From assembly GCF_003573695.1 (NCBI RefSeq), contig NC_039368.1, positions 10,749,860 through 10,813,859 on the forward strand: DNA of 64,000 bases. Direction: 5' to 3'. Source of the stretch: Papaver somniferum. Lineage: Eukaryota > Streptophyta > Magnoliopsida > Ranunculales > Papaveraceae. This document shows, piece after piece, positions 3,523-47,285 of this stretch; position 1 is the first letter of the stretch, and every line of letters starts with the position of its first letter. The notes beneath the pieces were generated by a model. It saw only the letters and a list, made by a program, of their open reading frames with translations. It was not told where the DNA came from and made no database searches. The translations under genes were made by a program, and so were the position numbers.

Positions 3523-3576
3523 GATGCTAATTTTTTAGCACAGTTTTCTGATTTCTGATTAGGTTAAGTCGAACCT

Positions 3577-6004: not shown

Positions 6005-7454
6005 CTACCTAACATGATCCACACGTACATCACTAGTTGTGATAAACTCTCTAACTGTGTTGTGATTTCGACGCATTTGTCGATTCTTACCATTATAAAA
6101 ACAGTTCTGTTCTTTTGCAATAGCCGCGGTACTATCACAATGGATCATAATAGCTGGTATCGGCCTATCCCGTACAGGAATTCGAGAAAGCAAGTTTTTC
6201 AACCATCCTGCTTCTTCACTAGTTGCTGCTAGTGCTATCAATTCAGACTCCATCGTAGATTGATCCAGAATTGTCTGTTTCTTTGACTTCCAAGACACAA
6301 CGCCACCAGCAATATTAAATAAACATCCACCAGTGGCCTTGGAGTCATCTGAAAGAGAGTTCCAATCAGCATCACATTATCCTTCAAGGACTGCAGGAAA
6401 TCTCTTATAGTGTAATCCTAGGTTAATGGTCTTTATAAGATACCGCATAACCCTCTCAACTGCATTCCAGTGTTCCAAACCTGGACAACTGGTAAACCTG
6501 CATAAAACCCCCACTGCATATGCAAGGTCTGGTCTGGTACAATCAGTTGCATAACAAAAACTACCAATTATACTAGCATATTCAGATTGTCTAATGCTAT
6601 CACCAGTATTCTTAAACAATTTAACACTAGCATCAAAAGGAGTACTCACAGGTTTACAATCAAAATAGTTGTATTTCTTTAAAATCTTTTCAATATAATG
6701 AGACTGATCCAAAGGAATACCATCATTAGTTCTAGTAATCTTAATTCCCAGAATTACACTAGCTTCACCCAAATCTTTCATTTCAAAGTTAGACTTAAGC
6801 ATATTCTTAGTTTCTTCAACCACAGACAATTTTGAACCAAAAATCAGCAAATCATCCACATATAAACAAATCATGATGCATGTATTGTTTTCAAACTTAT
6901 AGTATATGCATTTGTCACTTTCATTAATTCTGAAACCATGTGAAATCATCAAATTATCAAATTTTTCATGCCATTGCTTAGGAGCTTGTTTCAAATCATA
7001 CAATGACTTATCTAACTTACACACTTTATGTTCTTGACCAGGAACAACAAAACCTTCAGGTTGTTCCATGTATATTTCTTCTTCTAATTCACCATTTAAA
7101 AAAGTTGTTTTGACATCCATTTGATGAACAACAAGATTATGCTCAACAACAACAGCAATCAAAACACGAATAGATGTCAATCTTGTAACGGGAGAGTAAG
7201 TATCAAAGAAATCTACATCTTCTCTTTGTCTAAATCCTTTAGATACCAACCAAGATTTGTGTTTGTCTACTGAACCATCAGGATCGACTTCCTTTTAAGT
7301 ACCCATTTACAACCTATTTCTTTGCAACCAGGGGGTAAATCTGCTAGGTGCCAAGTTCCATTAAGATTATGGGAGTCCATTTCATTATCTATGGCTTCTT
7401 GCCAAAAACCGGATTCAGGAGAATTAAGTGCCTTTGAAGACTAGAAGGGTCTTC
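6005..7454 (-). pseudogene. copia reverse transcriptase and RNase H (broken)
   Basis: The reverse transcriptase occupies 7249-6377, with FFDTYSPVTRLTSIR, QMDVKTTFLNGELEEEIYM, LYDLKQAPKQWHEKF and the catalytic ICLYVDDLLIF, then YIEKILKKYNY and TRPDLAYAVG. A short upstream part (7454-7250) in other frames holds the RT N-terminus (CKWVLKR-like). RNase H is at 6298-6005 with MSWKSKKQTILDQSTMESE and HCDSTAAI. A stop or frameshift near 6377-6300 and breaks near 7250 interrupt the frame. Domain order and active-site residues match Tork-like copia elements. The enzyme would copy the element RNA into DNA. Confidence 0.9.
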
Positions 7455-8573
7455 CTATAGGGTATAAACTTCAAAGTCATAACCATAATCTGTCGCAATC
7501 CTAGCCCTTTTACTACGTCTGGGTTCAATTTCAGCGTCTCTAGTCTCTGCAGTTCTAGGTTCTTCTATTCTAAGTTCAGGACTTGTACTAGATAGAGAAC
7601 CCCCACTATTTCTAGATTTAAAAGGAAATCTATCTTCAAAGAAATAAGCATCAATAGATTCAATACTAACTTTATTATTTAGATCAAAAAATCTATAAGC
7701 TTTACTGTTTTGAGCATACCCAACAAAAACACATTCATAAGCTTTACTAGCTAGCTTTGATCTTTTAGGATCAGGAATACGAACATAAGCCAAACAACCA
7801 CATACTTTAAAATAAGATACATTTGGTTTTCTGTTTTCCAAAGTTCATAGGATGAAATTTTATTTTTTGAATTTTTCACACGATTCAAAACATAGCAAAT
7901 AATCAGCAAATTTTCTCCCCAAAAATGAGGGGCAGCACCAGAACTCAGCAAACATGCAGTCACAAGAGTAGTAAATGTACGATTCTTTCTTTCAGCTTTT
8001 CCATTCATTTCAGGGTTATACGGAGAGGTTTTTCATGTATAATTCCAGAAGATTCATAAATTTAAGTGAATGGTTTAGAATCATATTCAGTTCCTCTATC
8101 ACTACGAAATCTCTTAATTTTCCTACCAAATTGATTTTCAATTTCAACAATAACAATCTTAAATTTTTCAATAGCTTCATTCTTATGACTTAGCAAGTAA
8201 AATAGGTATAATTAGAATAATCATCAATAAAAGTCATGACATATCTCTTTCCATTTCTAGTTAATATACCTTCATATTCACACAAATCAGAATGCACTAA
8301 CTCCAATGGTTCAGATTCTCTAATAACAAATTTATGGGAACTCTTGGTTATCTTAGCTTGACTACAAGATTCACATTTTTTAAAATCATGCATGGATAGC
8401 TTTGGAATAATACCTTGCTTTCTCATGGCATCTACTGATCTACTGTTCACGTGACAAAGTCTATCATGCCAAACATTAAAAATACATACCATATAGGAAA
8501 AAGATGCAATTTTATTCATTTCAACATTAAGCTTAAACATTCCATCATCAGCATAACCTTTTCCTACAAACAC
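7455..8573 (-). pseudogene. copia GAG-pre-integrase and integrase (broken)
   Basis: The piece at 8573-8190 has WHDRLCHVNSRSV, the zinc-binding CESCSQAKITKS and the start of the integrase core (HSDLCEYEG, FIDDYSNYTY). The middle of the core is out of frame. MNGKAERKNRTF at 8008 begins the last core segment, and 7841-7455 carries the C-terminal region VCGCLAYVRIPDP and CVFVGYAQNSKAYRF, ending in a basic tail. At least two frame breaks occur (about 8190 and 7800), so no intact integrase can be made. Confidence 0.88.
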
Positions 8574-9857
8574 TCTGTTTTAGTAATTGTGTAAACATCA
8601 GTTCCGATAGTTTGATACAGCCAAGCCTTGTTGAGAAGATAGCCGGAAACAAGATTATTTCTCATATCTGGAGTGTGAAGGACATCTTTCAGCATAATTG
8701 TCTTCCCATAGGTAAACTTCAGTTCTACCGTACCAGAACCTTTCACAATAGTGGTATGGGAGTCTCCCAACAACACTTTCTTATCCTTTATTTCTGCATA
8801 GCTCTTAAATAGGGACCTATCAAAACAACAATGACGCGAATCACCACTGTCTATCCACCACCCATCGGTTCCACTAATCATGTGAATATCTGGATCAGAA
8901 ACCATGGCAATTATAAAGCTTTCAGCAACATTAGCTTGTGCGTTATTCTTTCCTTTGGTATTCCTGCAGTCCTTAGCCATGTGGTTTGGTTTACCGCAGG
9001 TATAACAAAGGAACTCAGAATCAGAATTCTGAAATTTCCTTGATGGGTGTGGGTTCTTGTTTTGATTAGGTTTTCGTTTCCTTTGGTTCTGGTCAGGTTT
9101 CATCGGTTTTTTCTTAGGTTTCAAACTCGATTGAGTCTGATTCTTATTATTGGAAACGATAAGAATCTCTTCCTTTATGTCTTGTTTCCGTTCTTCCTCT
9201 TCAACCATGAGCTTAACAATCAAACTTTCAAGAGAAAATTCCTTAGTTTTATGACGCAAAGCATTACGAAAACCTTCCCAAGATGGGGGGGAATTTATCA
9301 ATCAATACAGATACTTGAAATTGTTCATCAATTTTCATACCTTCCGTCATAATTTCATGAGCTATTTTCTGAAGTTCATGAGCCTGAGCAACGACTGATT
9401 TTTCATCCACCATTTGATATCTCAGGTAACGGCTTACAACATATTTCTTCGATCCAGCTTCTTCAGTATCATATTTCTTCTGTAAGGCATCCCACACATC
9501 TTTAGCAGTATCAAATGTGGAGTAATATTCATATAGATCGTCAGACAAAGCATTCAGAATGTAGTTTTTACAATCAAAGTCACTATCAATCCATTTTTCA
9601 TAAGCTTTTTTTTCTTCAGAAGTTTGGGTCACAACAAGTTCTTCAGTTGGTTGAGGAGTTGCACTTGTTGCGGCCGGAGATGCTTTTTCTGCAGCTTCTG
9701 CATCTTGTGGATCAGCTGGTTTGATGGAGGTCACCATCATGTGCAACTTCATCAGTTTGAGGTAGAAAAACAACTTTAGCTTCCATCTTCTGAAGTGAAG
9801 TCTTTCAAACTTGAACGGCTTGTTGATATCAGCAATTGTTTTCTTTTCAGATTCCAT
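8564..9857 (-). pseudogene. copia gag and protease (broken)
   Basis: The gag runs from ATG at 9857, with KFERLHFRRWKLKLFFYL, a charged insert, and the UBN2-type segment DDLYEYYSTFDTAKDVWDAL. A frameshift around 9264-9301 leads into the second half, with a basic region and the zinc knuckle CYTCGKPNHMAKDC. The protease motif reads WWIDSGDSRHC; the usual residue after the catalytic DSG is alanine, so this copy has an A-to-D change next to the active site. The gag start lies almost at the LTR edge (LTR begins at 9865), which is abnormal. Confidence 0.88.
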
Positions 9858-9864
9858 GGCAGAA

Positions 9865-10562
9865 TTGTTCGAACAATTGCCGATTTCACACCTGCAAAAC
9901 AGAGATTAAGACACGAAACAAAGTGACGGTTGAGTCACGACCAGGTCGCTCTCTTTAGGACGTTTCGTGGCTTTTCCTTGAATTTTGTGCAAGCAGTTCT
10001 TTTCTGTTACAACGCCCCCAGGATAAAACAGCCGAAAAAAACTCTCTTTCGATCTCTCATGCACACAATGAGAACTCGATCACTTTTACTCTCTCTATTC
10101 TTGCTCAGTATTTTTGGTCTCTTGATTCTCAGAAAAATAATAGTGTAAAAACTTGTATATTCTTTCTGTTCTCAAAAATGTTTTTATAACCAGGCAGTCA
10201 ATGCAGATTAATGGAGAATAAATTGGACTAATTGCTGCAATTAAAATTCCATTCGAAACAGTCAAAAAACGGGCAAATAAATCATGCCATAATTAGCGAA
10301 ATTAAAACATAATTAAGTGCAGTAAAAACGGTTTGGAAAAAATCTTTTAAAAACAGCAAACATAATTTCCACATTCAAGAGACCTCCCAAGACCCCGCTC
10401 CCGGACTAATGTTATATATATAATAATATATATGCACAATCAGTAGGGGAGGGATTCGATCCTGAGACCTAACCCTCCAGGACCAAAATACTTAATCACT
10501 GGGAAAAGATCGAATTGTTAGTATAAATATACAAAATAAATATTTTAAAACATATCCCAACA
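9865..10562 (-). repeat. 5' LTR of copia element 2
   Basis: On the minus strand it starts TGTTGGGATATG and ends TTGTTCGAACA. It matches the left LTR over its whole length, with scattered substitutions and small indels. It contains the second copy of the tRNA-like module. Confidence 0.92.
10438..10512 (-). repeat. tRNA/SINE-like module in the 5' LTR
   Basis: The box B-like sequence GGATCGAATCC (10462-10452, minus strand) is closer to consensus than in the other LTR. The box A-like part (10507-10497) has decayed. Its presence in both LTRs means that it was part of the element before this insertion. Confidence 0.48.
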
Positions 10563-12161: not shown

Positions 12162-15100
12162 CTATGCCAGCATTTGATGTTCCATGTTTTTGTTCTGGAC
12201 CCATGTCTGATTGAAGCATTTAATTAAGTAGTTCCAGATATCTGAAGCATATGTGCAGTGTAAGAAGATGTGAGCAATTGTTTCTTCCTCCATTCTACAA
12301 ATGATGCACCTTGAGTTTTGGATGTCACATCTCCTTTTAAGTAAGTTATCTACAATAGCAATGGCATTTTGTAGCACCATCCACATAAATAATTTTACCT
12401 TGGGACGTACAAATTTGATCCAGATGCTTTTATAAGAGACCTGAATCAAATGTGTTGAGGGGTCTTGTGAACTTAGAGCTTCATAACACTCTTTGGCAAA
12501 AAATTTCTCTCCAAATTTGCATGTAACTTCATCTGAATTGGTGTTTAATACTGGAGGGGTTCCAATGTGCATTATTAAGTTCAAAATATCCTGCATTTTC
12601 TCCACAGATGCATTTCTATTGAATTGCACATTCCATCTTCCATTGTGAATCATTTGATGAATGTAACCATCTTTATGAGTAGCTTTTTTATAAGCAGTGG
12701 GAAATAGTGTCTCCAGATATCTAGCCAAAATCTGATCGACGCTCCATTATTGATTCGCAGAGTTGTATGTTGTTCCACAATTTCTCTTGACTGTTGTATA
12801 CCCTTCCAAAATCCTCTGCCATGAGGAGTAGTTAAAGTTTTAGCCCATAAGTCATTTTATTCACCTTGTACTTTCTCCCTTATCACTTTTCTCCACAATG
12901 CTTGTTTCTCCTTCTTATATCTCCAGGTCTATTTTGCCAGCAGAGCTTTGTTGGTTAGTCTGAGATTTGTTACTCCATCCCAATCCCCCTTTTTTCTTTG
13001 AGATGTATACCTTTCTCCAAGCTATCCAGTTTATTTTCTTCTTTTCCGCTGATAAACCCCAGAGAAAGTTCCTCATGATTTGAGAAAGTTTCTTTTCTAC
13101 ACACACTGGCATAGGAATGATAGACATGAAGTATATTGGTGCTTTTGATCAAGACCAATATACCAGCTTTATTGAAAATTTTCCTCCTCCAAGGTGCAAG
13201 TCTTTTCTGAACTTTCTCTATGATCACATCCCATATAATTCTTGTGTTACAAGTTGCTCCCACTGGCATTCCTAGGTATTTGATAGGCAGTGTCTCAATA
13301 GTGGAACTTAATATGCCTGCACAGTCCTTGACCTTGTTATCAGCTCCAATGCTTACTACTGAGATTTTCTGCAAGTTGACTGGAAATTTAGTTATACCTT
13401 CATATATTTTGAGAATTAATAACAAATTTTCTACCTCCTCTTCTCTTGCATCAATAAATACAAGTGTATCATCAGAAAATTGAAGGTGTGTTATCATGTC
13501 TGGATTGTTTATATGAAATCCTTTGAACATATTTATCTCCACAGCTTTCTTCATTAGTTTAGTGAATATTTCAGCTACCAGAATGAACAAGAAGGGAGAC
13601 AATGGGTTTCCTTGTCTCAATCCTTTTTGTGAACTAAATCTTTCAGTGGATGTTCCATTTAAAATCAAGGAATATTGAGCAGTTGTAATGAAACACCAAC
13701 TCCATCTCCTCCACTTGATCCCAAAACCAGAAGCTTGAAGTACATGATCAACTGTGTGCCAGTTGATGTTGTCAAAAGCTTTTTGTATATCTAACTTGCA
13801 CAACAACCCTGGTTTCTTGCTCTTTAATCTTGAGTCAATCAATTCTCCTTCCACTAGGATTCCATCTAATATTTCTTTGTCCTTGACGAATGCACCTTGG
13901 CTGTCAGATATCAATTTAGCTAAAACTGATTTGAACCTTTCAGCTGATATCTTGGAAAAAATTTTGTACAGGCACCCAACTAAGGTGATTGGCCTGTAGT
14001 CTTTTGGAGAGTTAGAGTCTTCCTTCTTTGGTATCAATGTAATGAAAGAACAGTTAGTTCTTGAAGTCATCTTTTCCTCAAAATAGAATTCATGAACTGC
14101 TGCCATTAAATATATTTTTATTATATCCCATGCTGCCTTGAAGAACTTCATGGGATATCCATATGGCCTGGAGATTTGTTATTCTTAAAATGCAGAAATT
14201 TTTGTTTTACTTCATCTTCTTCAATTATTCTTTCCATCCAGACTTGCTCCTCTAAGGATATTTTTTTGAATCGATTGGTGTCCAGTTGATATCTTATTGG
14301 ATGCTCATCCTTAAACAATTTGGTGCAGTGCTCTATGAATTATTTTTTGATATCTTGCTGACAGAAGTTATCATGGCCATCAATTTCCATCTTGTGTACT
14401 GTATTTTTCCTTCTTCTGCCATTTGCAAGGCTGTGGAAAAATCTAGTGTTGTCATCTCCCTCTATGAAGTGTTTTTCGTTGGCCCTGGACATAAGCATTC
14501 ATTGATTTTCTGCACTAATTTGTTGCAGCTTTAATTTCTATTCCACTCTGGATATAAAGTCTTGTTGTTGTAGTGGCCCCTACTCCTCCAACAAGTTAAG
14601 TGCATCTAATTTCACATTTAGCTCATTTTTGAAAGATTGAGTTCCTCCATGTTTCTTTTCTCCATATCTTCATAATGAATTTCAGGCTTTGTAGCTTTTT
14701 AGAGAAAACATAACTTGGTGTTCCAGTGAAGGACAGTGCAGACCACCAAATTTGAAGATTGGTTAGAAAGTTCTTATTAAGCAACCAGTAAGCTTCAAAT
14801 TTGTAAGAAGGTTTTTGTCTAACAATGTCAGTAGTTGTGAGCACTATTCGGTTATGATCTGACAAAGATCTAGATAAGAGGTGCTGAGCAAGATGAGGAA
14901 ATTTACCTGCAAAAGCATTTGATACCAGAATTCTGGCAAGTCTGCATAATAGAGGCTGAGTTTGCATATTTGACCATGTGTACTTTCCTCCAAGAAGTGG
15001 CAAATCAATGAAAGGATGCTTTCCTAGGAATTCATTAAATAATCTCCTACTCCTTTTTCTTCCTCCCTCTTTGTTTCTTTCAGCAGGTCTTCTTGTTGCA

Positions 15101-15521
15101 TTCTAATCTCCAGCCAAAACGAAAGCGTCTGACAGCCATCCAGTTAAGTCCTCCATCTCTACCCAGAATTCTAATTTTTCATCATACTCACACGGTGAGT
15201 AAACATTTGATAGGCTCCATTAAAATTATCGCTTCTGCACTTAATAATGAGTTGGGACCAATGAGTTCATCTATGCAGCTTAACTGGGTATCATCCCATA
15301 TGGTTATTATTCCTCCTGACAAACCCCTGGAAAGAATTGATCTCCACTTGTTGTTGATGTTTCCCCATAAGTTATTTATGAACCAATCACAAAGTTTCAT
15401 CATTCTAGTTTGTTGAATTAGAACACACACTGTTTATGTCTCTGAATTTGATCTTCACCGCATCTATCTTCTCCATAGCATTTAGACCCCTAATGTTACA
15501 TGAGAAGATTTTAAGATCCAT
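12162..15521 (-). pseudogene. LINE ORF2: endonuclease, reverse transcriptase, zf-RVT (broken)
   Basis: ORF2 appears to begin at ATG near 15521 with MDLKIFSCNIRGLN, the usual start of the APE-type endonuclease. Further endonuclease pieces are at 15430-15188 and 15003-14623 (GGKYTWSN, SLSDHNRIVL). The reverse transcriptase is in 14151-12970, with FITLIPKKEDSNSPKDYRPI, CKLDIQKAFDNINW, GLRQGNPLSPFLF and the catalytic FSDDTLVF (FADD is more usual). The C-terminal piece 12728-12162 ends in a zf-RVT domain (RPKVKLFMWMVLQNAI, CIICRMEEETIAHIFLHC). Several frame breaks (about 15190, 14600, 14150 and 12970-12730) make it non-functional. Confidence 0.88.
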
Positions 15522-16841: not shown

Positions 16842-17056
16842 GTATGTTTATCCCTCCTAGGCAGCCGTTTATCCATTTTAATCTCCCTTTTCAGAAAAAC
16901 AAAAACAGTTAACAAATTTCAGAAGAAAAGGGTATATAACGAGACAAAGGAAAGATTTATACACGATATAGTAAGATGTGATCAGTTATTAGAGTAATAT
17001 TGGACATCCCATATACCTACAGGGCAGGTGGCCTAATCAAATCATGGTCTAAAAAA

Positions 17057-17097
17057 GAACCATAATATTGGGCATACCAAAATCTTCCAAGGCATAC
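17057..17097 (+). repeat. Left terminal inverted repeat
   Basis: It begins GAACCATAATATTGGGCATA and ends GGCATAC. It is the reverse complement of 22158-22198 apart from three bases. Confidence 0.85.
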
Positions 17098-17246
17098 TGA
17101 ATGAAGACAAAAAAGATTGTGAAATAGCAAAATCAGATAACCCCTTAACCCAAATTTTTTTAATGGCAAATCTGCCCTTTACGTATTAGTGTTAATAATC
17201 TTGATTAGTGATTAAAATAATTTTCAGAATTATAAGAGTTGTTTAG

Positions 17247-17714
17247 ATGAAAAATTTGAGGAAAAAAAATCAAAGAGTTTTGGTTTGGTTAAGAAGGAGA
17301 GAAAGAGAAGGAGAAAGTGAGAAAATTCTAATTCTTGATTCAATAGAGGATGAGGAGGGTCATATATCATCTAAAAAACCTAGGAAAATACACATCAACT
17401 ACACCAATGATTCCCAAATGGCTGATTTCTTAGATTATGAGAATGATTTTACACCCACTCAAACTCAAGCTCAAACTCAAACACAAACTCAAGATGATGA
17501 TTTTTATGAGCTAAATCCTGATGATGAAGACATTGATGAGGAACCCAATGCTTCTAATACACATGTACACTTATATCCTATACTTAATCTCACTTTTATA
17601 GCTCTCAATTATCAAAAGTTAGGTTTTTTGAATCATGGTTCGGCGAAACAGGTTGAGGTTCGGCTCACATCTATGAGCCGAATCTACCAATTGATGAACG
17701 GTTCGGCTTACTGA
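17247..17714 (+). CDS. Hypothetical acidic, Q/T-rich protein inside the TIR element
   Basis: An open frame of 155 residues starts about 190 bp from the left TIR. The N-terminus is basic and Arg/Lys-rich, followed by an acidic section with a TQTQAQTQTQTQ run and DPDDEDIDEE-like patches. The last 30 codons run into the TTCGGC array and are probably not coding. No domain was recognised. Its position suggests that it is the first exon of a lost second gene of the transposon. The GT-rich downstream context was not resolved into further exons. Confidence 0.3.
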   Translation: MKNLRKKNQRVLVWLRRREREGESEKILILDSIEDEEGHISSKKPRKIHINYTNDSQMADFLDYENDFTPTQTQAQTQTQTQDDDFYELNPDDEDIDEEPNASNTHVHLYPILNLTFIALNYQKLGFLNHGSAKQVEVRLTSMSRIYQLMNGSAY

Positions 17715-18196
17715 ATCTATTTACTGCATGCGCCGAACCTATAATTTCCAATTCCAACCCTTTTGCTAGACACTAGTTCGGCTTATATGAAAGTTTCATA
17801 GTAAGCCGAACAACATCCTGAATTGCCCGAAATAGAATCATTACTAATTCGGCTTACGTATCCAAAATCGTATGTGCCGAACATAATTTTTTAATTTCTG
17901 GGTTGAAATATTGTTACTGGTTCGGCACATATGGAGAATATCGTATCAGCCGAAACCTCTTATGTTCAAGGTTCGGCACATAATATGATTATCGTCTGAG
18001 CCGAACATGAATTTGTTAATTTTTGGGTTAAAATATTGTTCGTGGTTCGACACATATTGAGGATATCGTATAAGCCGAAACCTGTAATGTTTATAGTTCG
18101 GCAAATAAGGTGATTATCGAATGCGCCGAACCTGAAGGACAAATGATTCGGCGCGCAACTAACATTAGAGGATAAGCCGAACTCTATAAATTCGGC
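17639..18196. repeat. Left array of inverted TTCGGC/GCCGAA modules
   Basis: Nine modules begin with TTCGGC (one TTCGAC) and end with GCCGAA, with starts at 17659, 17702, 17777, 17848, 17921, 17972, 18046, 18097 and 18147; half-modules lie at 17639 and 18191. Six of the nine are exactly 34 bp and one is 35 bp. The module at 17777 is almost a perfect hairpin. Start-to-start spacings cluster near 50 and 73 bp. Confidence 0.85.
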
Positions 18197-19546
18197 GCAT
18201 AACTGTTAAGCTATTCATTAAAACATGAAATTGAAGGTGTCCATAACCCAATCCCAGCACCATTAAAAACAAAGTTCAGCACCTAAAAGCAAAGGTGTTT
18301 GCAACACCATAAAAGTGTACTTAAAACTTAAGAAAAAGTGTACCATAAAAGTGTACCATAAAAGTGTACATAAAAGGGCATTTAACCACGACCCATCTTT
18401 TTAGTTGCACGACCACCTCTTCTTCCACCTTGGTATTCATCTTCCGACGCATCATTACCGGGTTGGACGGTAGCACCACCTTGGCTTGTACCTTCACCAA
18501 CTTGTCGAGACCTCTTAGTGGTAGGCCTTTGTTCGGGTTCCTCGGGTCCTTGTCCTTTGTTGATGATTGCATCCAACTTGTTGATGAGGTATTTTTGTTC
18601 TTCCACTGTAATTGGTGTTTTGCAACCAAGTTTGGCCTTCATTTTTTTCAACATCTCCCTACCCGCGGCAACCTATTTTTTCATTTGTCAACAACTTATA
18701 ACCATGAGGTTGAAGACATTTTTACCATAACTAATATATGAAAATAGTATAAAGTGAAGTCATTCTTACCATAATCTTGAAAGCCTTGACTACATCTTCG
18801 GAAGTAGACTTGTTGGTGATCTTGATTGGCCTCGCCTTCCCCTTATCAGCTATCTTTTGCCTTTTTTATTGATAATGAAGGGATGAGAAATTTGGTTATA
18901 CCAATCCATATAGCCCGGATCCTCTTCACATGGATCATCAAGTAAAGGTGTTAACTTGGACGCATCTAATGTGTGATTGTCTAAATTATTCCAAAACTCA
19001 ATGGGATCAGGATCATACTTTGGTTCCCAAGATGAAGTGGTGCTTTTAGTTCCCTTACCACTCTTTGGTAACAACCTGAATTTCTCGTCAAACAAAGGAA
19101 CCTTTTGGACGCATCCTAATTGACGGAGTACTCGCCTAGGATCGTATATAACATAACCACCGGGATACCACAATGGCCCATGATACATACCTACCCCGGC
19201 ATACCCATCTTCAACAACTTCATTTCTTCATCTTCCTTCTCATATGGTTGAAAAGTGACATCATCAACACCAAGACGGTCTAACGTCTCTCTCAAACTTG
19301 CCACCAACTTCTTTTTGTTCCTTTTCTTGGAGTCCTCGTACGCGTACCATGCTGCAGTTGGCTCAGTATCAACATAATCGACATCTTTCTCAAATACTTT
19401 GGCCAAGTTCAAAATTGGGAAATGGTCATATATCCACACCTACATCCAAAGAACCACATTAAAAAATCAAAGGAATTGAATTGATAGAAACAAGTTTTAC
19501 TTGGAAACATCAAAGTAAGAATAAAGTTTGCAAACTCAAAGAACTG

Positions 19547-19630
19547 TTCGGCTTATATGGAGCAAGTATTATAAGCTGAACCAAGTAAGTAAAAACTTCG
19601 GCTTAAAAGAGTTTATGGTTATAAGCCGAA
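19547..19630. repeat. Middle pair of TTCGGC/GCCGAA modules
   Basis: Two modules of exactly 34 bp (19547-19580, whose right arm is GCTGAA, and 19597-19630) sit in the intron between PMD exons 2 and 3. They have the same design as those in the outer arrays. Confidence 0.85.
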
Positions 19631-20921
19631 CCATACTCTGAACTCCAAAAAGTTACCTGGAGCAAAGTGAAGTTCCCTCCGATGTTTGTACTTGTCAACC
19701 TAGACGCGGTGGCAAGTTGGTACAGCAGGTAAGCGAGCGTAGCCGTTCCCCAAGCAGACTTATTACAAGTTTCAAGATTCTTTACCAATTGGAGATAATT
19801 AGCATTTACCTTGTTACCGGTAGTGTCGGGAAAGATGTCTCTACGAAGAGTATAAAGCAAGTAGGCAGTTCCGGTTTGCTTCACTTTGACGAGATCCATT
19901 ATCAACAAACCTTGTGTGACTCTTTCCTTTGTGTTCTCAAACTCCTTTTTCAAGTTAGTCAACTTGATCTTCTTATTCTTCTTATTTCTGCCACCTGGTA
20001 TGAAAACGGTATCGACATCTTTAACTGATCGAAAAAACTCCAACTCAGTTTTCTGTGAACCCCAACCAAGGCATTCCAGGTACAAATTGTATAGCTCATC
20101 CCAACTCATGTCATAAAAACCAGCATCCACACTTACACCCCTTGCTTTAAGGCCTGTAATCTTACTAGCCTCATCAGGAGTGATTGCCATCTCTCCAAAA
20201 GGTAATTTAAATGTGTAAGTTTCTGTACAAAAGCGCTCGGTAAATGCAGAGGCCGACACACTATCATATTCCTTATGTCCATAATTGATGATAAGCCATA
20301 AAGCACTGCGTTGTCCATAATCACCTCAGGAACCTCTTCATCAAGACTTCATTCCGCTGCCCTTTGGTGTCTCAATACTCGGACTGCACGGTTGTGATCA
20401 GGAGTCTCATAAATTTTCTTCGCCCAAGAATCGGCATAACCAATCAACACATTTCCTCCATCTTCCGGAAAACCATGAGGCAAACCATCTGATCGAGGTG
20501 TAATTACGTCATCTTCATCAGGAATGTGTAAAACAGTGATCCGTCGATCATCATCGTTCTTCTCTCTCTCGGGTTCTGCCACCTTCTTACCTTTCTTGTC
20601 TTTCTTGGGTTTTCCTTGGAGTTGTGTTTCTTGATGAACTTCTTGATTATCATCAACTTCTTCATCTTCAGCTATTCCTTCTTCTTGTCTTTCAATTCTT
20701 ACTTGTTCAGCTTCTTCTTCTAAAATTCCTCCTCTACCTCCCGCTCCCAATTTTTTCTTACCTCCTCCTCTAGGATCGGGAGTTTTAGAAGTAGAAGGTG
20801 TTACCTCCATCTTCTTACTCTTTGTAGCTGCATTGGTCCTGACACAAGTATGAAAGTTATAAGACTCATTCGAACAACAAAGAGATTTGGAAAGACAAAA
20901 ACTTGTAAGAAAATAATAAGG

Positions 20922-21628
20922 CTCGGCTTACCCGAAATAACACATATGAGCCGAATCATGTCTTGAAATTTTTATTAGCTTACACAGAGAGTGGATCGGC
21001 TCATACCACAAAACAATTATAAGCTGATCCTGTATATTCGGCTCACAACCGATACCATCGAATAAGCCGAGTCTATGATTATGAACTCAAACATGTATTC
21101 AACGCAACATGATATCATATAAATAAGCCGATCCTATACACTTGTAAAATTTATGAAATTTTAACAATGATATTCGGCGCAACCCTAATACTATCGAATA
21201 AGCCGAATCTAGACTTATGAATTGAAACCTTTATTCGGCGCAAAACTAATACAACCATACAAGCCGATCCTAAGCACATGCAAAAATTCTGAAATTCAAA
21301 CAACAATTATTCGGCACAAAACTAATTCTACCATACAAGCCGATCCTAAGCACATGCAAAAATACTGAAATTCAAACAACAATTATTCGGCACAAAACTA
21401 ATACTACCATACAAGCCGATCCTACGCACATGCAAAGTTTCTGAAATTCACAAAACATATTCGGCAAAAACTAACACCATCGAATAAGCCGATCCTAAAT
21501 ATAAGTCTCTGTGTCACTAAGTTCGGCTCAAAACGGATTTCAGATATACGCCGAGCCGTTCATATGCACTTTCAGGGTTCAGTTTCAAGAACAGCTCGGC
21601 GCACATATAAGATTTGTTTTGCGCCGAA
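20922..21628. repeat. Right array of inverted TTCGGC/GCCGAA modules
   Basis: Eleven modules start at 20922, 20995, 21037, 21098 (degenerate), 21173, 21234, 21310, 21386, 21460, 21522 and 21595. All are 34 or 35 bp long. Arm variants are CTCGGC, ATCGGC, GCCGAT and GCCGAG. Modules at 21234, 21310 and 21386 lie in a 76 bp tandem repeat. Most of the array is in PMD intron 1. Confidence 0.85.
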
Positions 21629-22157
21629 CCATACCCTGTAACCGCCGCAGAAACATGATTTTGACGAATTAAATCGAGCAAACCAATCTAAAACATCAAA
21701 TACGAGATGGGTTTGTAGAACTAACCTTCTTATTCTCATTTCCGGAGTTGGTTCTTCTTCAATCTCTTCTTCCGGTTGATTTTGTGGTTGATTTTGAGTT
21801 TGTTCTTCACTCTCTAAATCTTCTTCTTCTTCAATGGGTTGTTGAGTCGATCGATTTGAACGAGATGCTGGCTTACGACGACCCATTATATAGATGAGTT
21901 TAATCGTCGACTAAATTTTCAAGAATCGACGATTAAATTTCCGCGATGAAAAAAAAAGGGAAGGGTGAATGAGTTCGGATGTGGAGAGGAAGAAGAAGAA
22001 GGTGAATGAAAATGATTTTAGGTGTAGTTGATTATAGGTTTTGTATTAGGGTTAGGGATAGATTAGTAGTAATTTAAAGGATTTAAGGGAATATAGGTAA
22101 TTGAACCACCCCATAGGGTACCCCTTATAAGGTCACCCAAGTTAGGACTAGTGCCTT

Positions 22158-22198
22158 GTATGCCTAAGAAAATTTTGGTATGCCCAATATTATGGTTC
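22158..22198 (-). repeat. Right terminal inverted repeat
   Basis: This is the partner of the left TIR. Read on the minus strand it starts GAACCATAATATTGGGCATA and has three mismatches over 41 bp. Confidence 0.85.
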
Positions 22199-22206
22199 CT
22201 AAAAAA

Positions 22207-22993: not shown

Positions 22994-23293
22994 AAAAAAC
23001 TGAGGAGCAGAAGCGGAGAGACCTACAGGTGAGATGGTCAATCTTGAGTAATTATTTACATGAAGCAGGATTTGAAACTCATAATCACATACCACTATTA
23101 ACTATAAAATCACCAGAAAATGATCACCAAACAATTATATTCACAATTGGTTCACCTGATTTAGGATTGTAAAGTGCGCACAAATTAGTATTAGATCGTG
23201 GTCCTTTTTTTTCCTTTGATTGGCCGATGCAAGCCGTGAATGGTTTGCTATGTTTTGTCACATCTAATATAAAGGAATTTCTCATATATAATC
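22994..23293 (+). pseudogene. F-box-associated domain gene, 5' part of the split copy
   Basis: The plus-strand frame reads WSILSNYLHEAGFETHNH, then SFDWPMQAVNGLLCFVT and IKEFLIYN, where the copia array begins. The VNGLLCF...LIYN pattern is the familiar start of the kelch-like F-box-associated region in plant SCF substrate-receptor proteins. A TAA interrupts the frame near 23171 (GL-stop-SAHKL). The F-box itself is not visible upstream. Asn is encoded exactly at the insertion edge, and the frame resumes at 51798 as N-P-M-T-G. Confidence 0.8.
23289..23293. repeat. Left target-site duplication (TAATC) of the copia array
   Basis: TAATC directly precedes TGTTGG of the first LTR and is repeated exactly at 51798-51802 after the last LTR (CCAACA). 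With one copy removed the F-box frame is continuous. Confidence 0.9.
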
Positions 23294-24164
23294 TGTTGGA
23301 ATATTGACAACAATAATGAAAATAAATTGAATAAGCACAAGATATACTTAGCTTAATTTGCAGCAACTTGGAGTAGCATGCGGAGCAAAAATTGATAGAG
23401 GCACGTATATGATACGCTGTCCTAAAGACAATATCGCTTGCTACTCCTCTAAACAGAGAGATGCTATAGCTTCGTTGGCGAGTTGCAGCCAGGATACAAC
23501 TATCATTAGCATTCCTTCTTGTAGCATATAAGAGAACGCCCTAAGAACTTGGCAGTGAAAAACAACTCAGTGAAACCACCTTGTTTCACTCAAATAAAAC
23601 TCATAGAGAAAAATGGAAGAATAAACTTGTTTTTCTCATTTTTCTCTCCTATTCTTTTTCTACTAAAAACAGAGGAGTTAATGTTGAGTTGTTTTTCTTT
23701 CAAAACATGAAAACCAAAACATGAAGGAGTTCATTTTGTTTTTCTCTTTTTCTACTGAAAACTTCAGAAGAAGTCTTTTTTTTCTCTACTCTCTCTTAAA
23801 ATGAACTCAAGACCCTCTTTCTATTAATGTTTCAATAGTTAAAAACAATAAAGAGAATCTCAACGTTAGAAACATGAGGAGAGAAACCCATGTGTATGAC
23901 ACAAAATTTTGAGAAGATTTTCATATTTACTGGTTATGTCTAGTGAAAAATAGTGCATGCTTTTTCTTTAATAAGAAAACAGCTTTTCAGAAAAACAACT
24001 TTTGCTTTTGTCAGAAAACAACTTTTGCTTTTATCAGAAAAAACAACTTTTGATTTTTGTCAGAAATCATCTTTTGTTTTAAACCAAACAGATTTTGCTT
24101 TTATCCAAAAACAACTTTTGGTTTTATCAATTCAAAAGAAAAAACAAACCCGTTTTTTCTAACA
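23294..24164 (-). repeat. Array LTR 1 (outer left, 3' end of the array)
   Basis: It starts TGTTGGAATATTGAC and ends TTTTTTCTAACA on the plus strand (871 bp). It lacks about 15 bases (GGATGCATCACGTC region) near 23370 that the other LTRs keep. Near its right end it holds imperfect direct repeats of about 22 bp around CAACTTTTGCTTTTATCAG. Confidence 0.9.
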
Positions 24165-27100
24165 GTCCCCCACATGAATGATAAAACATATCGATAAGAT
24201 GTGAGAAAACAGAAGGCATATAATTTGGCTAAGGTGTCCCAAAGATTGAACCTTAACTTAGTGAGAGGTTATCAGAACTGCTTGTTGTAACGGTGAACAC
24301 AATGTGTTGAACCGCCAGCAGTGAATGCAATTCAGAGATAACAATCACACTTGATGTCTCCACCGAAAGCTGCCAATCTCTTGCGGTTGTGCCCATTTGG
24401 GTGATGGGCTAAATCCCGGTTTTAATGAATGTCTCTAGAATCATCTCAAATTCTCATAGGAAGCGGCCCCACTTCCAACATCCACATAGGTGATTCCGTC
24501 AAGAGTGTCCTGCCACACCCCGCTTTAAACAAAGCCATGGAACCCATTAAAATCTCAACATGTCATCCTATCTCATGCGGGTAACACTATCACAGGGTTA
24601 CACCATAGGGAGGGACAAAGATAGTGTTTCTCGATATCACCATAAATTAGGTTGTCTCATTGAACCTTGATTTTGGAGCTCTATTCACAAGGTTGAGTAT
24701 CCTTCATGGTGATTTATTTTTATGAGCTTAAGTCCCATCCCCTTCAATGTAGAGATAACAACATTTCTTTATGAAACTTTCGTCGAAGGAACTGCAATAT
24801 TATCCTTGGACCTTACAAAGTCAAGAGAGATAATACTGGTAAAAAGTAGTTGCTTCACTATCTCTTGCTTTCTATGAAGCTATAGACTCTGACTCCATAT
24901 TGAATCAATCTATACTTGTATGTTTGTATATCTTCCATGATACAGACGCACCTCCAAGTGTGAAGATGTACCCACTATTGGATTTTGACTTATTTGAGTC
25001 ATAAATCCAGTTGGCATCACAACACCCTTCTTTCAGAGCAATATTTTTCCCAAAACTTAAACAAAAGTTTGAAGAACCTCTCAAGTAGCGCAAAACTCCG
25101 TTGAGAAAATTCCTGTGATCCTGCTCAGGGTTATAAGTGTACCTGCTCAAACTAATCACAGCGTAAGCAATACCAAGTCTTATATAAATAATAAGTTACA
25201 TAAGACTGCTAATTACGCAAGAATACTCAAAAGTTGAGAAACACCGTCACCCTTGTTCTTTATCAAGTTAAAAGTGGGTTCACAAAGAGTAGAAGTAGGT
25301 TTAGCCTCAGCGTGATTAAATTTCTGTAGTATGGTTTCAGCAAAATGAAATTGACTAAGACTATATTCATCAGACGTGTCTCTGACTTTTATCCCTAAGA
25401 TTACAGCAATAGGATCGAAGTCTTTTATGTCAAAGTTCTCATTCAACATGCTTTTAATGGTATTAATAAAAACAATGTTGCTGTCTAATATGAGCATATC
25501 ATCAACATGCAGGCATACAGTCACATAAGCATCATCCTCGTATTTAATGTAAACACATTAGTAAGATTTATTAATCTTAAACCAGTAGATATCATTTCAT
25601 GATTATATTTTCATGTCTTTGTTTAGGCGCTAGTTTCAAACCATATAGAAATTTAATCAATTCGCTTACTTCATTCTCATAACAAAAAACCTTTAGATTG
25701 GTACATATAAATTTCTACATTTAATTCACCATTTAAAATTGCAGTCTTAATATCCATCTGATGTATATATTCAAATCATGAATAAAAGCAATAATAATCA
25801 TCATCTTAACAGAAGTGATTCTAGTGACAGGTGAATAAGTGTCAAAGAAATTTATTCCTTAATTTTTGGTTATCACCTTTAGCCATAACCATACTAGGTA
25901 TTTATCCACAGTCCCATCTTCCAAGGTCTCGTTTTGAAGACTATTCGGAAGAACATATAACTTCCTTGTGGGTTCAGTGTCCAGACTCTACCATAAAGGT
26001 CACTTAGCCGAGGCTAAAAATTGTGTAAGTTCAAACTCTCTTACTTATACTATGTTCAGTCTAAACATCTTACGACGGGGTTGACTAGTCGAAGGAACAT
26101 CTAAGAGACTGTGATGGACCTTTTTTGAGGTCCAATCCTCAAAGGAATTATATGTTCAAAAAACCAAGCATCTCTAGATTGCATTACAGTGTTCATACCA
26201 ATGTTATCAATATCAAATCTTATGACCATTAACCTATATGCACTAGCATGCTTAGGATAGGTTAGGAATCCATAATCTTAGGTCAAAATTTTGATTTGTT
26301 TGGGAGGCGAAATAGAAGATACACCCTCACATTTTAGGTTATACACCTTGCACAATCTTCTTGGAAGATTAAAATAATTTTTTTATTTATTTTACACCTC
26401 CACAGTTACCGAGATTTCTCAACATGTTGTTATATTGTGTCATTTAACACAAGCTGCATAATAAAATTATGGTATCCTACCAACATTATGACTTAACATG
26501 TTCATGCATTCATTATCAATTAATAGCATACAAGCTACACTTTATCTATTAATCCTCATTTTCTATTATGCTAACAGTTCAAAGCATCATATGAACTTAT
26601 TTCCAAATATCATATCTCATAGTAAGGTAGATAACCATTGGAAATTGCATTTAAAGCATAACGTACATGTGGAGAATGATGATGTCCGTACCTGAAATCT
26701 TTTTACTTATTTTTTCCTTCATATGTTTTTGATAGTTAGTTTCTCAAAGAACCTTAGTACTTTTGGAAGAAGACTCACACGTTTCTTCTGTAGCATGCAT
26801 TCTACCACTCCCAATATTAACCATACTTCTTGTTGGATTAAGTTATTGTACCTCAACATTAGATCAAGCAATCATTAGCAGGTCACAAAATATTGGTAAT
26901 TAAAACCAAATGCTTTGTGTATTCGCAAATCAATTTAAACACACAATTTTCTTGTTGTATCACAATTATTAAGCAAACATGTGATTTATGAAAATTGATG
27001 TTACACAAAACATATATGATACAAGTAATTTTGAACATAAACAAATTTGATATACAACTTATCAAAATCATATTGACAAATTAATACAAATTTACCTCTA

Positions 27101-27825
27101 CAAAAGATTATTGCTCATGTCATAGGAATCGTTTGCTAGCTACATGCTTAAGTTATCATGAGAATTAAATTTCAACTAAATATCCTCTAAGTAATCACTA
27201 CTCCAGGTTCTCATGATATGCTCAAAGTGATATCACATCACTAATCAAATGTTGCTAGACATAATCTAGAGACTACACACAATTTTCATTTTCTAGACAG
27301 ACATGCACAGCAATTTTCCAAATACCTTATCTCTCAAACCGCATATCCAAATTATAAAAAGAATTCAACAAAAATCTTCTTGAGATAAGAGATAAACCCA
27401 AAACTCTACAAATCAATATAACTTTAACTTTTGTTCTTTCACAGGGTTTGTAAAATATTAACAAAATACTTTTACAATTCCAAAAATTACAAAATTTGCC
27501 GAGGGTATCAACCAATATATATACTACAACGTGGTAAAGGATTTAACAAAATTCCTTATGAGTTAAGAGATAAACTAAAAACTCTTCAGCTCAACAAACT
27601 TTTAATTATTATTATTATTATTTATTTATTTTCACTAAAAAGAGGAACATCTTTAGTTTTACAAAGTTAGTAAAACACCAACCATAAACAAACCAATGAA
27701 TCATTATATATTAATGAAGCCAAATGCTTTATGACTCTTTCCACTAAACTTAGTAGTTTTATTGCTCAACAATATTTTTTCCTTATTATTGCTACAAAAG
27801 ATAGAGTAGGATATTGTGTTTAGAC
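24165..27825 (-). pseudogene. Array internal region A with copia pol remnants
   Basis: A purine tract (minus strand TGGGGGAC) abuts LTR 1. Pol remnants lie at about 24720-26400. RNase H and RT end are at 25159-24905 ([26 protein letters not shown]). The RT palm is at 25524-25213 (CLHVDDMLILDS, His in place of Tyr in YVDD). RT N-terminal shreds (MDIKTAILNGELNVEIYM) lie to about 25960, and integrase C-terminal shreds (QSRDAWFFEH) to about 26350. From 26400 to 27825 there is AT-rich DNA without coding signal where gag, protease and integrase should be. This copy lacks a block present in B, C and D (around 31910-32150 in B). Confidence 0.8.
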
Positions 27826-28713
27826 TGTTGTAATATTGACAATAATAATGAAAATAAATTGAATAAGCACAAGTGATGCTTAGCTTGATTTACATCAACT
27901 TGGTGGATGCATCACGTCGAGTAGCATGCAGAGCAAAAATTGATAGAGGCACGTATATGATACGCTGTCCTAAAGACAATATCGCCTGCTACTCCTCTAA
28001 ACAGAGAGATGCTATAGCTTCATTGGCGAGTTTCCTCCAGGATACCACTATCGTTAGCATTCCTTCTTATAGTATACAAGAGAACGCCCGAAGAACTTGG
28101 CAGTGAAAAACGACTCAGTGAAACCACCTTGTTTCACTCAAAATAAAACACATAGAGAAAAATGGAAGAATAAACTTGTTTTTCTCGCTTTTCTCTCCTA
28201 CTCTTTTTCTACTAAAAACAGAGGAGTTAATGTTGAGTTGTTTTTATTTCAAAACATGAAAACCAAAATATGAAGGAGTTCATTTTGTTTTTCTCTTTTT
28301 CTACTGAAAACATCAGAAGAAGTCTTTTTTTTCTCTACTCTCTCTTAAAATGAACTGAAGACCCTCTTTCTATTAATGTTTCAATAGTTAAAAACAATAA
28401 AGAGATTTTCAACGTTAGAAACATGAGGAGAGAAACCCATGTGTATGACACAAAAATTTTGGGAAAATTCTCACATTTACTGGTTATGTCTAGTGAAAAA
28501 TAGTGCATGCTTTTTCTTTAATCGGAAAACAGTTTTTCAGAAAAACAAATTTTGCTTTTGTCAGAAAACAAATTTTGCTTTTATCAGAAAAAACAACTTT
28601 TCCTTTTTGTCAGAAATCATCTTTTGTTTAAACCAGAAAGCTTTTGCTTTTATCCAAAAACACCCTTTGCTTTTATCAATTCAAAAGAAAAAATAAAGCC
28701 GTTTTTTCTAACA
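27826..28713 (-). repeat. Array LTR 2
   Basis: It is 888 bp and starts TGTTGTAATATTGACAATAA, a variant shared only with LTR 3. It ends TTTTTTCTAACA. The sequence on both sides is internal-region DNA, so it serves two neighbouring units. Confidence 0.9.
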
Positions 28714-31700
28714 ATCCCCCGCATGAATGATAAAACATATCGATAAAATGCGAGAAAACAAGAGGCATCAAAATTAGGCTAAGATGTCCCAAAGACATAA
28801 CCTTAACTTAGTGAGTGGTTACTGGAACTGCTTGTTGTAACGGTGAACACAATGTCCTGAACCGCCAACAGTGAATGAAATTCAGAATTAACAATAGAAC
28901 TTGATGTCTCCATCGAAAGTTGCCAATCTCTTGCGGTTGTGCCCATTTGGTCCATGGGCTAAATCCCGGTTTTAATGAATGTCTCTAGAGAATCAGCTCA
29001 AATTCTCATAGGAAGCGGCCCCACTTCCAACATCCACATAGGTGAGTCCATCAAGAGTGTCCTTCCACACGCCGCTTTAAACAAAGCCATGGAACCCATT
29101 AAGATCTCAACAAATCATCCTATCTCATGCAGGTAACAATATCACACAGTTACACCATAGGGAGGGAAAAAGATAGTGTTGTCTCGATATCACCATAAAT
29201 TAATTGTCTCATTGAACCTTGATCTTGAAGCTCCATTCACAAGGTTGAGTATCCTTCATGGTGATTTATTTTTACGAGCTTAAGTCACATCCCCTTCAAT
29301 GTAGAGATAACTACCTTTCTTTATACACCCTTTGTCAAAGGAACTGCTATATTATCCTTGAACCTTACAAAGTCAAGAGATATAATACTGGTAGTTCACT
29401 ATCTAGTGCTTTCTATGAAGCTATAGACTCTGACTCCATATTGCATCGATCTATACTTGTTTGTTTGTATATCTTCCATGATACAGACGCACCTCCAAGT
29501 GTGAAGATGTACCCACTATTGGATTTTGACTCATTTGAGTCATACATCCAGTTGGCATCACAACACCATTCTTTCAGAGCAGGATTTTCCCCAAAACTTA
29601 AAAAAAAAGTCTGAAGAACCTCTCAAGTAGCGCAAAACTCTGTTGAGAAAATTATTGTGATCCTGCTCAGGGTTGCAAGTGTACCTGCTCAAACTACTCA
29701 TAGCGTAAGCAATACCAAGTCTTATACAATTAATCAGTTACATAAGACTGCTAATTACGCAAAAATACTCAAAAGTTGAGAAACATCGTCACCCTTGTTC
29801 TTTATTAAGTTAAAAGTGGGTTCGCAAAGAGTAGAAGATGGTTTAGCCTCAGCGTGATTAAATTTCTTTAGTATGGTTTCATCAAAATGAAATTGACTAA
29901 GACTATATTCATCAGACATGTCTCTGACCTTTATCCATAAGATTACATCAATAGGATCTAAGTCTTTTATGTCAAAGTTCTCATTCAACATGCTTTTAGT
30001 GGTATTAATAAAAACAATGTTACTGTCTAATATGAGCATATCATCAACATGCAGGCATACAGTAACATAAGCATCATCCTCATATTTAATGTAAACACAT
30101 TAATAAGATTTATTAATTTTAAACCACTAGATATCATTTCATGATCAAATTTTCATGTCTCTGTTTAGGCGCTTGTTTCAAACCATACAGAAATTTAAGC
30201 AGTTCACTTACTTCGTTCTCACAACAAAAAACCTTTAGATTGGTACATATAAATTTCTACATTTAATTCACCATTTAAAATTGCAGTCTTAATACCCATC
30301 TGATGTATATATTAAATCATGAATAAAAGCAATAATAATCATCATCTTAACAGAAGTGATTCTAGCGACAGGAGAATAAGTGTCAAAGAAATTTATTCCT
30401 TAATTTTTGGTTATCACCTTCAGCCATAACCATACTAGGTATTTATCCACAGTCCCATCTACCAAGGTCTCCTTTTGAAGACTATTCGGAAGAACATATA
30501 ACTTCCTCGTGGGTTCAGTGTCCAGACTTTACCATAAAGGTCACATAGCCGAGGCTAAAACTTGTCTAAGTTCAAACTCTCTTACTTCTACTATGTTCAG
30601 TCTAAACATCTTAAGACGGGGTTGACTAGTCGAAGGAACATCTAAGAGACTGTGATGGACCTTTTTTGAGGTCCAATCCTCAAAGGAATTATATGTTCAA
30701 AAAACAAAGCATCTCTAGATTGCACTACAGTGTTCATACCAATGTTATCGATATCAAATCTTATAACCATTAACCTATATGCACTAGCATGCTTAGGATA
30801 GGTTAGGAATCCATAATCTTAGGCCAAAATTTTGATTTGTTTGGGAGGCGAAATAGACGATACACCCCCCACATTTGAGGTTATGCACCTTGCATAATCT
30901 TCTTGGAAGATTAAAATAATTTTTTTTATTTTACACCTCCACAGTTACCGAGATTTCTCAACATGTTGTTATATTGTGTCATTTAACACAAGCTGCATAA
31001 TAAAATTATGGTATCCTACCAACATTATGACTTAACATGTTCATGTATGCATTATCAATTAATAGCATACAAGCTACACTTTATCTATTAATCCTCATTT
31101 TCTATTATGCTAACAGTTCAAAGCATCACATGAACTTATTTCCAAATATCATATCTCATAGTAAGGTAGATAACCATTGAAAATTACATTTAAAGCATAA
31201 TGCACATGTGGAGAATGATGATGTCCGTACCTGAAATCATTTTACTTATTTTTTCCTTCAAATGTTTTTGATAGTTTAGTTTCTCAAAGAATTGCTTTCA
31301 TACCTTAGTACTTTTGGAAGAAGACTCACACGTTTTTTCTGTAGCACGCATTCTACCACTCTCAACATTAACCAACCTTCTTGTTGGATCAAGTTATTGT
31401 ACCTCAACATTAGATTCAAGCAATCATTAGCAAGTCACAAAATATTGGTAATTAAAACCAAATGCTTTGTGTATTCGCAAATTAATTTAAACACACAATT
31501 TTCTTGTTGTATCACAATTATTAAGCAAACATATGATTTATGCAAATTGATGTTACACAAAACATATATGATCCAAGTAATTTTGAACATAAACAAATTT
31601 GATATACAACTTATCAAAATCATATTGTTCCTTGACAAATTAATACAAATTTACCTCTATAAAAGATTATTGCTCATGTCATAGGAATCCTTTGCTAGCT

Positions 31701-32611
31701 ACATGCTTAAGTTTTCATGAGAATTAAATTTCAACTAAATATCCTCTAAGTAATCACTACTCCAGGTTATCATGATATGCTCAAAGTGATATCACATCAC
31801 TAATCAAATGTTGCTAGACATAATCTAGAGACTACACACAATTTTCATTTTCTGGACAGACATGCACAACAATTTTCCAAATACCTTATCTCTCAAACCG
31901 CATATCCAAATTAGATAAATCAAAAAGGGGTTTAAAGATAAGATCCAGAACTAAATATCTTATTCAGATCAACATTTCCAGAAACTCATAGTCATGCCAA
32001 AAAAAATTAATTTTTCAGCAGAGTTTTTTCTGCCCGTCAGAAATTTCAGAAACATTTTACAGTTTTGTAAAATATGTAAAAAATACTTTTCCAACTCCAA
32101 AAATCATAAACTTGGTGGGGTGAAAAACAAATATGTCTCCTAGTTGTAAAAAGAATTCAACAAAAATCTTCTTTAGTTAAGAGATAGACCTAAAACTCTA
32201 CAAATCAATATAACTTTAACTTTTGTTCTTTCACAGGTTTTGTAAAATATTAACAAAATATTTTTACAATTTCAAAAATTACGAAATTTTCTAAGGGTAT
32301 CAATCAATATTTCTACTACAAAGTGGTAAAGAATTTAACAAAATTCCATATGAGTTAAGAGATAAACTCAAAACTCTTAAGCTCAACAAACTTTTTATTA
32401 TTATTATTATTATTTTTTCACCAAAAAGAGGAACGTCTTTAGTTTTACAAAGTTAGTAAAACACCAACCATAAACAAACCAATGAATCATTATATATTAT
32501 TGAAGCCAAATGCTTTATGACTCTTTCCAGTAAACTTAGTAGTTTTATTGCTCAACAATATTTTTTCCTTATTATTGCTACAAAAGATAGAGTATGATAT
32601 TGTGTTTAGAC
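28714..32611 (-). pseudogene. Array internal region B with copia pol remnants
   Basis: The organisation matches region A. The RT palm is at 30039-29755 (MLILDSNIVF, LSQFHFDETILKKFNH), with RNase H shreds to the left and integrase shreds to about 30890. It has DLDP and DVILWIKVRDMSDE, where A has DFDP and VILGIKVRDTSDE; these changes are shared with region C (apart from G/D at one site). It retains the block with AAAAAGGGGTTTAAAGATA near 31925 that A lacks. No gag, protease or integrase core is present. Confidence 0.8.
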
Positions 32612-38252: not shown

Positions 38253-38324
38253 ATCCCCCGCATGAGTGATAAAACATATCGATAAAATGCGAGAAAACAG
38301 AAGGCATCAAAATTAGGCTAAGGT

Positions 38325-38329
38325 GTCCC
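38325..38329. repeat. Left target-site duplication (GTCCC) of the gag-only LTR element
   Basis: GTCCC precedes TGATGAGTGC and is repeated at 47281-47285. The other array units read TGTCCCAAAGA uninterrupted at this place, which proves the insertion point. Confidence 0.93.
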
Positions 38330-47280: not shown

Positions 47281-47285
47281 GTCCC
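47281..47285. repeat. Right target-site duplication (GTCCC)
   Basis: This is the exact copy of 38325-38329, followed by CAAAGATTGAACC, the continuation of array internal region D. Confidence 0.93.

Follow-up and report, generated by a model that had tools for sequence, protein, structure and literature searches.

The described systems closest to the one considered here come from three sets of plant DNA transposons, whose source papers are drawn on in excerpt throughout. The VANDAL elements of Arabidopsis combine an element-encoded protein, VANC, which carries a DUF1985 domain, and a short motif present in numerous copies; in the case of VANC21, the motif is placed in introns and other non-coding DNA and often occurs in tandem repeats (PMC5735166, PMC10398659). 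The soybean CACTA elements Tgmt* and Tgm1 bear numerous pairs of partly GC-rich inverted repeats, unequal in number at the two ends and presumed to be read by a TnpA-like protein that the elements encode (PMC2613891). Plant mobile domain (PMD) genes, finally, are found on the MULE transposons of grasses and Amborella, where the PMD is fused to the MULE transposase (PMC5418596). Here, we describe a 5,142-bp DNA transposon (17057-22198) in a 64,000-nucleotide stretch of Papaver somniferum (contig NC_039368.1, positions 10,749,860 to 10,813,859 of the forward strand; this whole stretch is termed the window and all coordinates are its own) that has something in common with each of them, viz., a PMD gene, arrays of a short motif in non-coding DNA that are partly tandemly duplicated, and the arrangement of that motif in inverted pairs. 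The motif arrays are real and well marked, and are probably functional; some element-encoded protein is likely to bind them, with the family's own PMD protein as the foremost candidate. All module statistics given below derive from this one copy of the element.

Inverted modules of near-constant length

The element contains 22 inverted TTCGGC...GCCGAA modules (variants included) in three groups, namely nine on the left (17659-18181), two in the middle (19547-19630), and eleven on the right (20922-21628), which is the grouping given in the original prediction made from the letters of this stretch. Its statement that the modules are nearly constant in length likewise stands, though its count of 19 at 34-35 bp becomes 20 on measurement: 13 are 34 bp and seven are 35 bp long, with single modules of 36 bp (17702) and 24 bp (17659). 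The left array (17639-18196) comprises the 24- and 36-bp modules, six of 34 bp, one of 35 bp, and two unpaired half-sites (17639 and 18191), and has a 125-bp tandem duplication inside it (17885-18134). Both middle modules are 34 bp long, and the right array, built partly of 76-bp and 136-bp tandem units, has five modules of 34 bp and six of 35 bp.

If one mismatch per arm is allowed, 18 of the 22 modules pair at 34 or 35 bp (12 and six, respectively), as opposed to a mean of 0.09 and a maximum of 1 in 300 dinucleotide shuffles of the element. Exact arms at these lengths occur eight times in the element and in none of the 300 shuffles. The exact pattern with a gap of 18-28 bp is found nine times in the window, every time within the element (mean of 100 shuffles 0.00). 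When the arms are loosened to at most two mismatches each and three in total, and lengths from 20 to 79 are compared, there are 15 pairs at 34 bp and seven at 35 bp, with 0 to 8 at the other lengths. The module count leaves out the looser 34-bp pairs at 17068 (at the left end of the element) and 21619, as well as loose 33- and 36-bp matches other than that at 17702.

In our splice model of the PMD gene, described below, no module overlaps an exon: the whole right array (11 of 22) falls in intron 1, the middle pair in intron 2, and the remaining nine past the 3' end. The core words TCGGC/GCCGA occur 44 times in the element, of which 40 are in module arms, two are the unpaired half-sites, and two are in exons; the 2,305 bp of exons have 2 of these words and the other 2,837 bp have 42 (Fisher P 4e-9, with exon limits at most 2 bp off those given below).

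Half-site design, constraint, and shared descent

The half-site has the core TCGGCnYA, often with GG just before it. Its T2, C3, and C6 are invariant in all 44 half-sites, while G4 and G5 are present in 41 and 42 of them; in the flanks, G is found at -1 in 28, G at -2 in 26, and A at +9 in 40. T at +10 is chiefly a feature of the right halves (19 of 22), and because several right halves additionally display CGAT further inward, the module is not a plain palindrome. The near-invariant core, the held spacing, and the place of the modules outside exons together argue for a bound protein of two subunits.

At positions 1 to 15, the two arms of a module resemble each other no more than do arms taken from different modules in one group (permutation P at least 0.25); P is 0.02 at position 16, which is inside the module past the arms and one of 16 positions tested. 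This lack of arm covariation fits half-sites read on double-stranded DNA better than it fits a hairpin or stem. Nine of the 22 modules were folded as single-stranded DNA: four fold well (17777-17810, z -9.0; 19597-19630, z -4.3; 21595-21628, z -3.6; 21386-21420, z -3.6), as might be expected of RNA hairpins or DNA cruciforms acting, e.g., as silencing triggers or protein-bound stem-loops, but the other five fold weakly (z -2.4 to -0.2). Given these weak folds and the independence of the arms, we rejected a hairpin or RNA function as the principal explanation and regard it as most improbable. The 19 distances between neighboring module centers fall into classes of 42.5, 49-51, 61-62, and 71-76 bp, and their clustering exceeds a uniform null (P 0.0002, periods 10-11), with the best period at about 11.4-12 rather than 10.5 (R 0.74 and 0.60, respectively). 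This is suggestive only of a helical phasing of the modules, as the large class near 74 is judged to drive the signal.

The tandem units of 76, 125, and 136 bp within the arrays imply that a part of the module constancy stems from descent. When the arms are compared with the rest of these duplicated stretches, they have changed significantly less in the 136-bp unit (P 0.003), but not in the 125-bp unit (P 0.33) or in the 76-bp units (P 0.47 and 0.09). These units and the three non-significant tests would suit minisatellites drifting without function, whose equal lengths reflect shared descent and nothing else. Against such drift, the left and right arrays have no 14-mer in common and yet possess the same arms and spacing; the 11-, 12-, and 13-mers that they do share number six, two, and one, and the half-site core is present in every one of these. 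Further, identity between 34-bp modules of different groups (52 pairs) is 88% in the arms and 34% over the inner 14 positions, in line with the greater variability of the inner bases noted in the original prediction. The observed/expected ratio of CpG is 1.41 in arms and 1.33 in module interiors, as against 0.34 in linkers and 0.52 in the rest of the window, beyond the element; interiors differ from linkers in CpG against TpG/CpA with P 0.02, a value uncorrected for shared descent. CpG being high in modules and low in linkers indicates that the modules were kept while the linkers decayed. The absence of a common 14-mer, the arm identity across groups, and the retention of CpG point to constraint, and drift without function is in our view very unlikely. 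The site for a dimeric DNA-binding protein that was predicted for these modules fits the core, the spacing, the otherwise unrelated arrays, and the independence of the arms, with the binding itself being putative.

Element ends, the PMD gene, and its relatives

The element is flanked by an 8-bp target-site duplication, CTAAAAAA, which matches exactly on the left (17049-17056) and right (22199-22206), and has 41-bp terminal inverted repeats (TIRs) that are 93% complementary (17057-17097 on the plus and 22158-22198 on the minus strand). Both ends carry an exact GAACCATAATATTGGGC, with which the left TIR starts. The first letters of the TIR, GAACC, also close five of the 22 modules on the top strand, and GAACCATA at the TIR start (17057-17064) provides the outer-edge letters of two modules (GCCGAACCAT at 19625-19634 and 21623-21632). 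MULEs have long TIRs and a target duplication of about 9 bp, while hAT elements combine an 8-bp duplication with a hAT transposase. The present element has TIRs of 41 bp and the 8-bp duplication, and none of its 39 open frames of at least 50 aa has a Pfam match to a transposase, whether of the mudrA, the hAT, or another type, as would be compatible with loss of the transposase gene or its supply by an autonomous copy. No gene other than the PMD gene is recognized by Pfam in the same 39 frames, though diverse TnpA-like proteins could be missed in this way. The PMD stands alone here, in contrast to its fusion with the transposase in the MULEs of grasses and Amborella (PMC5418596).

The paired design of the modules, for which the original prediction knew no parallel, has in fact already been published for soybean CACTA elements: Tgmt* has 28 subterminal repeats capable of forming 14 stem-loops, of which four on the left are within 159 bp of the TIR and 24 on the right within 732 bp, and Tgm1 is described as similar (PMC2613891). 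Whether the Tgmt* repeats are recognition sites remains to be determined according to that paper. This precedent makes a TnpA/CACTA-like role, i.e., modules as sites for a transposase or an accessory protein that draws the two ends together, the main and a strong rival of a PMD reader. It accords with the GAACC common to the TIR and five of the modules, and with the near-equal distances of the arrays from the ends, which had been put at 582 and 570 bp and prove to be so, the left one being measured from the unpaired half-site at 17639. However, Tgmt* has CACTA ends and a 3-bp duplication, neither of which is found in the present element with its GAACC ends and 8-bp duplication, and the arrays of the latter are placed 0.57-0.58 kb inside it and partly in PMD introns. 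The middle pair in intron 2 is far from either end, and the open frames yield no transposase match. In spite of the symmetric end distances, the modules are not simply subterminal as had been predicted, because 13 of the 22 are intronic by the splice model, a layout nearer to that of the VANC motifs of VANDAL elements (PMC5735166) than to classic subterminal repeats; we consider a role in transposition rather unlikely.

The single recognizable gene of the element is the PMD gene on the minus strand, whose 240-aa main frame matches PF10536 well above the curated cut-off (E 2.2e-27, 96.6 bits as against 34.9). The four-exon splice model is our own, and only two of its junctions are borne out by a relative. 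The predicted exon 1 (21886-21726) starts with MGRRKPASR and is followed by intron 1 (21725-20839), whose acceptor is supported by the relative P0017. Exon 2 (20838-19657) contains the PF10536 match and is disrupted by an in-frame TGA (20349-20351) and, near 20319, by a frame break. After intron 2 (19656-19440) comes exon 3 (19439-18770), in which the frame seems to break near 19225 and, judged from the reading frames only, again near 18865; exon 4 (18672-18382) ends at a stop codon. Judging from the TGA and the frame breaks, the gene is no longer intact in this copy. On the plus strand, a 155-aa open frame with no Pfam match (17247-17714) might represent exon 1 of another gene that has otherwise been largely lost.

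Three protein searches, the first two of which scored only the 7,985 and 7,997 candidates with most words in common, recovered 25 relatives of the PMD protein (P0001-P0025). Of these, 21 are Papaver somniferum proteins with 29 to 64% identity over the aligned part, MAIN-like proteins among them, and four further ones come from assemblies (P0010, P0017, P0021, P0024). P0010 and P0017 are both 91% identical to the protein of the element, over 67% and 33% of the third-search query. The sequence of P0010 continues without interruption across the position of intron 2. P0017 starts with MCYFG, which corresponds to a frame inside the module 20922-20955 up to a GTAAG donor, and continues with the residues from the predicted exon 2 acceptor; the GTAAG is contained in the minus-strand arm of this module and appears to be used by P0017 as a splice donor. 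The two proteins look like spliced RNA of a close copy, with an intronless copy as an alternative source, and they may be on one contig (the longest has 2,173 bases for both). As P0017 ends where P0010 starts and the two are separate proteins, the close copy may be broken too.

These data bear on the possibility that the modules regulate how the PMD gene is expressed, with its own product or a host factor acting on the intron 1 array as an enhancer, promoter, or operator. Half of the modules do reside in intron 1 near the 5' end, and the start of P0017 within a module makes transcription of some of the array in the close copy probable. By contrast, nine sites past the 3' end are less expected of such regulation, and the middle pair is deep in the gene; we deem it unlikely.

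Within the 64-kb window, there is no second copy resembling the TIR, the left array, or the right array. A TIR 17-mer has one exact match among viral contigs, a collection not meant for plant genomes; the matching contig (L001) lacks any module with exact arms 18-28 bp apart, and the match is probably due to chance. Neither relatives of P0010 in genome contigs nor relatives of alignment A3 in viral contigs were confirmed, both collections being ones not meant for plant genomes. A structure model of P0001 from 14 aligned sequences (mean pLDDT 48.3, pTM 0.36) is too poor for fold comparison, and a sequence search of solved structures gave two matches, to ribosomal protein eL6, that are not meaningful (E 0.16).

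Elsewhere in the window, a unit of 4.5-4.8 kb is present in about three copies in tandem, roughly 90-95% identical, just to the right of the element (23293-38329), with more pieces at 47281-51761. A 2.5-kb direct repeat of 99% identity (38330-40834 and 44783-47280) contains a near-identical 143-aa open frame at 38775 and 45222. By eye, the minus-strand frames at 960-3534 and 6377-9905, and at 12970-15102, resemble Copia-type polyproteins and a LINE-type reverse transcriptase and endonuclease.

A PMD protein as the candidate reader

We propose that the module might be an operator-like site of a transposon-family protein, two subunits of which would read the two inverted half-sites and thereby set the distance of 34-35 bp. 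The PMD protein of the family, as the most likely reader, would load on the arrays in its own introns and past its own 3' end, and would keep the element clear of silent chromatin so as to permit its expression and movement, as VANC does on VANDAL. This entire chain, from the modules as binding sites through the PMD protein as their reader to an anti-silencing effect, is one that we hold tentatively. Protein binding, the PMD identity of the binder, and its effect are what we infer from the data, the latter two because of the link between VANC and DUF1985 and because Ikeda et al. (2017) offer the tempting speculation that the PMD proteins which MULEs have captured function in anti-silencing (PMC5418596).

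As in VANDAL elements, the motif arrays of the present element are non-coding and tandemly duplicated. Moreover, the PMD of the element's relatives bears a weak similarity to the DUF1985 domain found in VANC, and eight of ten relatives match this domain at E 4e-4 or less (best 5.5e-7, with 30.1 bits as against the Pfam cut-off of 35.1), although three of the five relatives in the second batch were picked since the database already listed DUF1985 for them. The differences are that the protein of the element is a PMD protein and not VANC, with a clear match to PF10536 and none to DUF1985 above the cut-off, and that its TIRs are clear, whereas those of VANDAL elements are degenerate (PMC10398659).

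Several points weigh against a PMD reader with an anti-silencing effect. The VANC21 motif, YAGTATTAY, is single and in one orientation, while the modules are inverted pairs at a held distance (PMC5735166). All the DUF1985 matches are below the curated cut-off, with E 0.008 for this copy, 0.035 for P0004, and none for P0006. Being broken, the PMD gene of this copy could not presently furnish an acting product. A part of the constancy seen in this one copy is shared descent via tandem duplication, the arms having changed significantly less than the rest in one of four duplicated stretches. The published paired repeats of soybean supply a TnpA-like role as a ready competitor. As for the literature, no PMD protein is shown to bind DNA in the passages covered, and the Arabidopsis proteins MAIN and MAIL1 promote silencing, i.e., act in the opposite direction. 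PMC9899485 calls chromatin binding by the MAIN complex unknown. The DOWN motif, which reads CATGCAGTTT in the promoter of MORC1, is unlike the modules (PMC9899485), and is linked to MAIN and MAIL1 through gene expression rather than binding (PMC7156037, PMC9899485). Further, the excerpted parts of PMC5418596, PMC8616336, and PMC6419827 name no PMD target motif, which does not establish its absence from print.

Still more doubtful, though of wider consequence, is the generalization that PMD proteins are sequence-specific dimeric DNA-binding proteins, with the 34-35 bp module as the first recognized PMD site and an anti-silencing action parallel to that of VANC. Whether and how PMD proteins contact chromatin is treated as an open question in the available parts of PMC9899485 and PMC8616336, and a ready probe of that contact is offered by the defined, repeated pairs of half-sites that lie within the introns of this transposon's PMD gene and next to it. 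If the PMD protein does bind the modules, PMD proteins would be linked to the kind of escape from silencing known for VANC. Transposons would then have an anti-silencing system that rests on the PMD, a distant relative of the VANC domain, and works in parallel to VANC; this would explain the presence of PMD genes in transposons and hint at how the host proteins MAIN and MAIL1 find chromatin.

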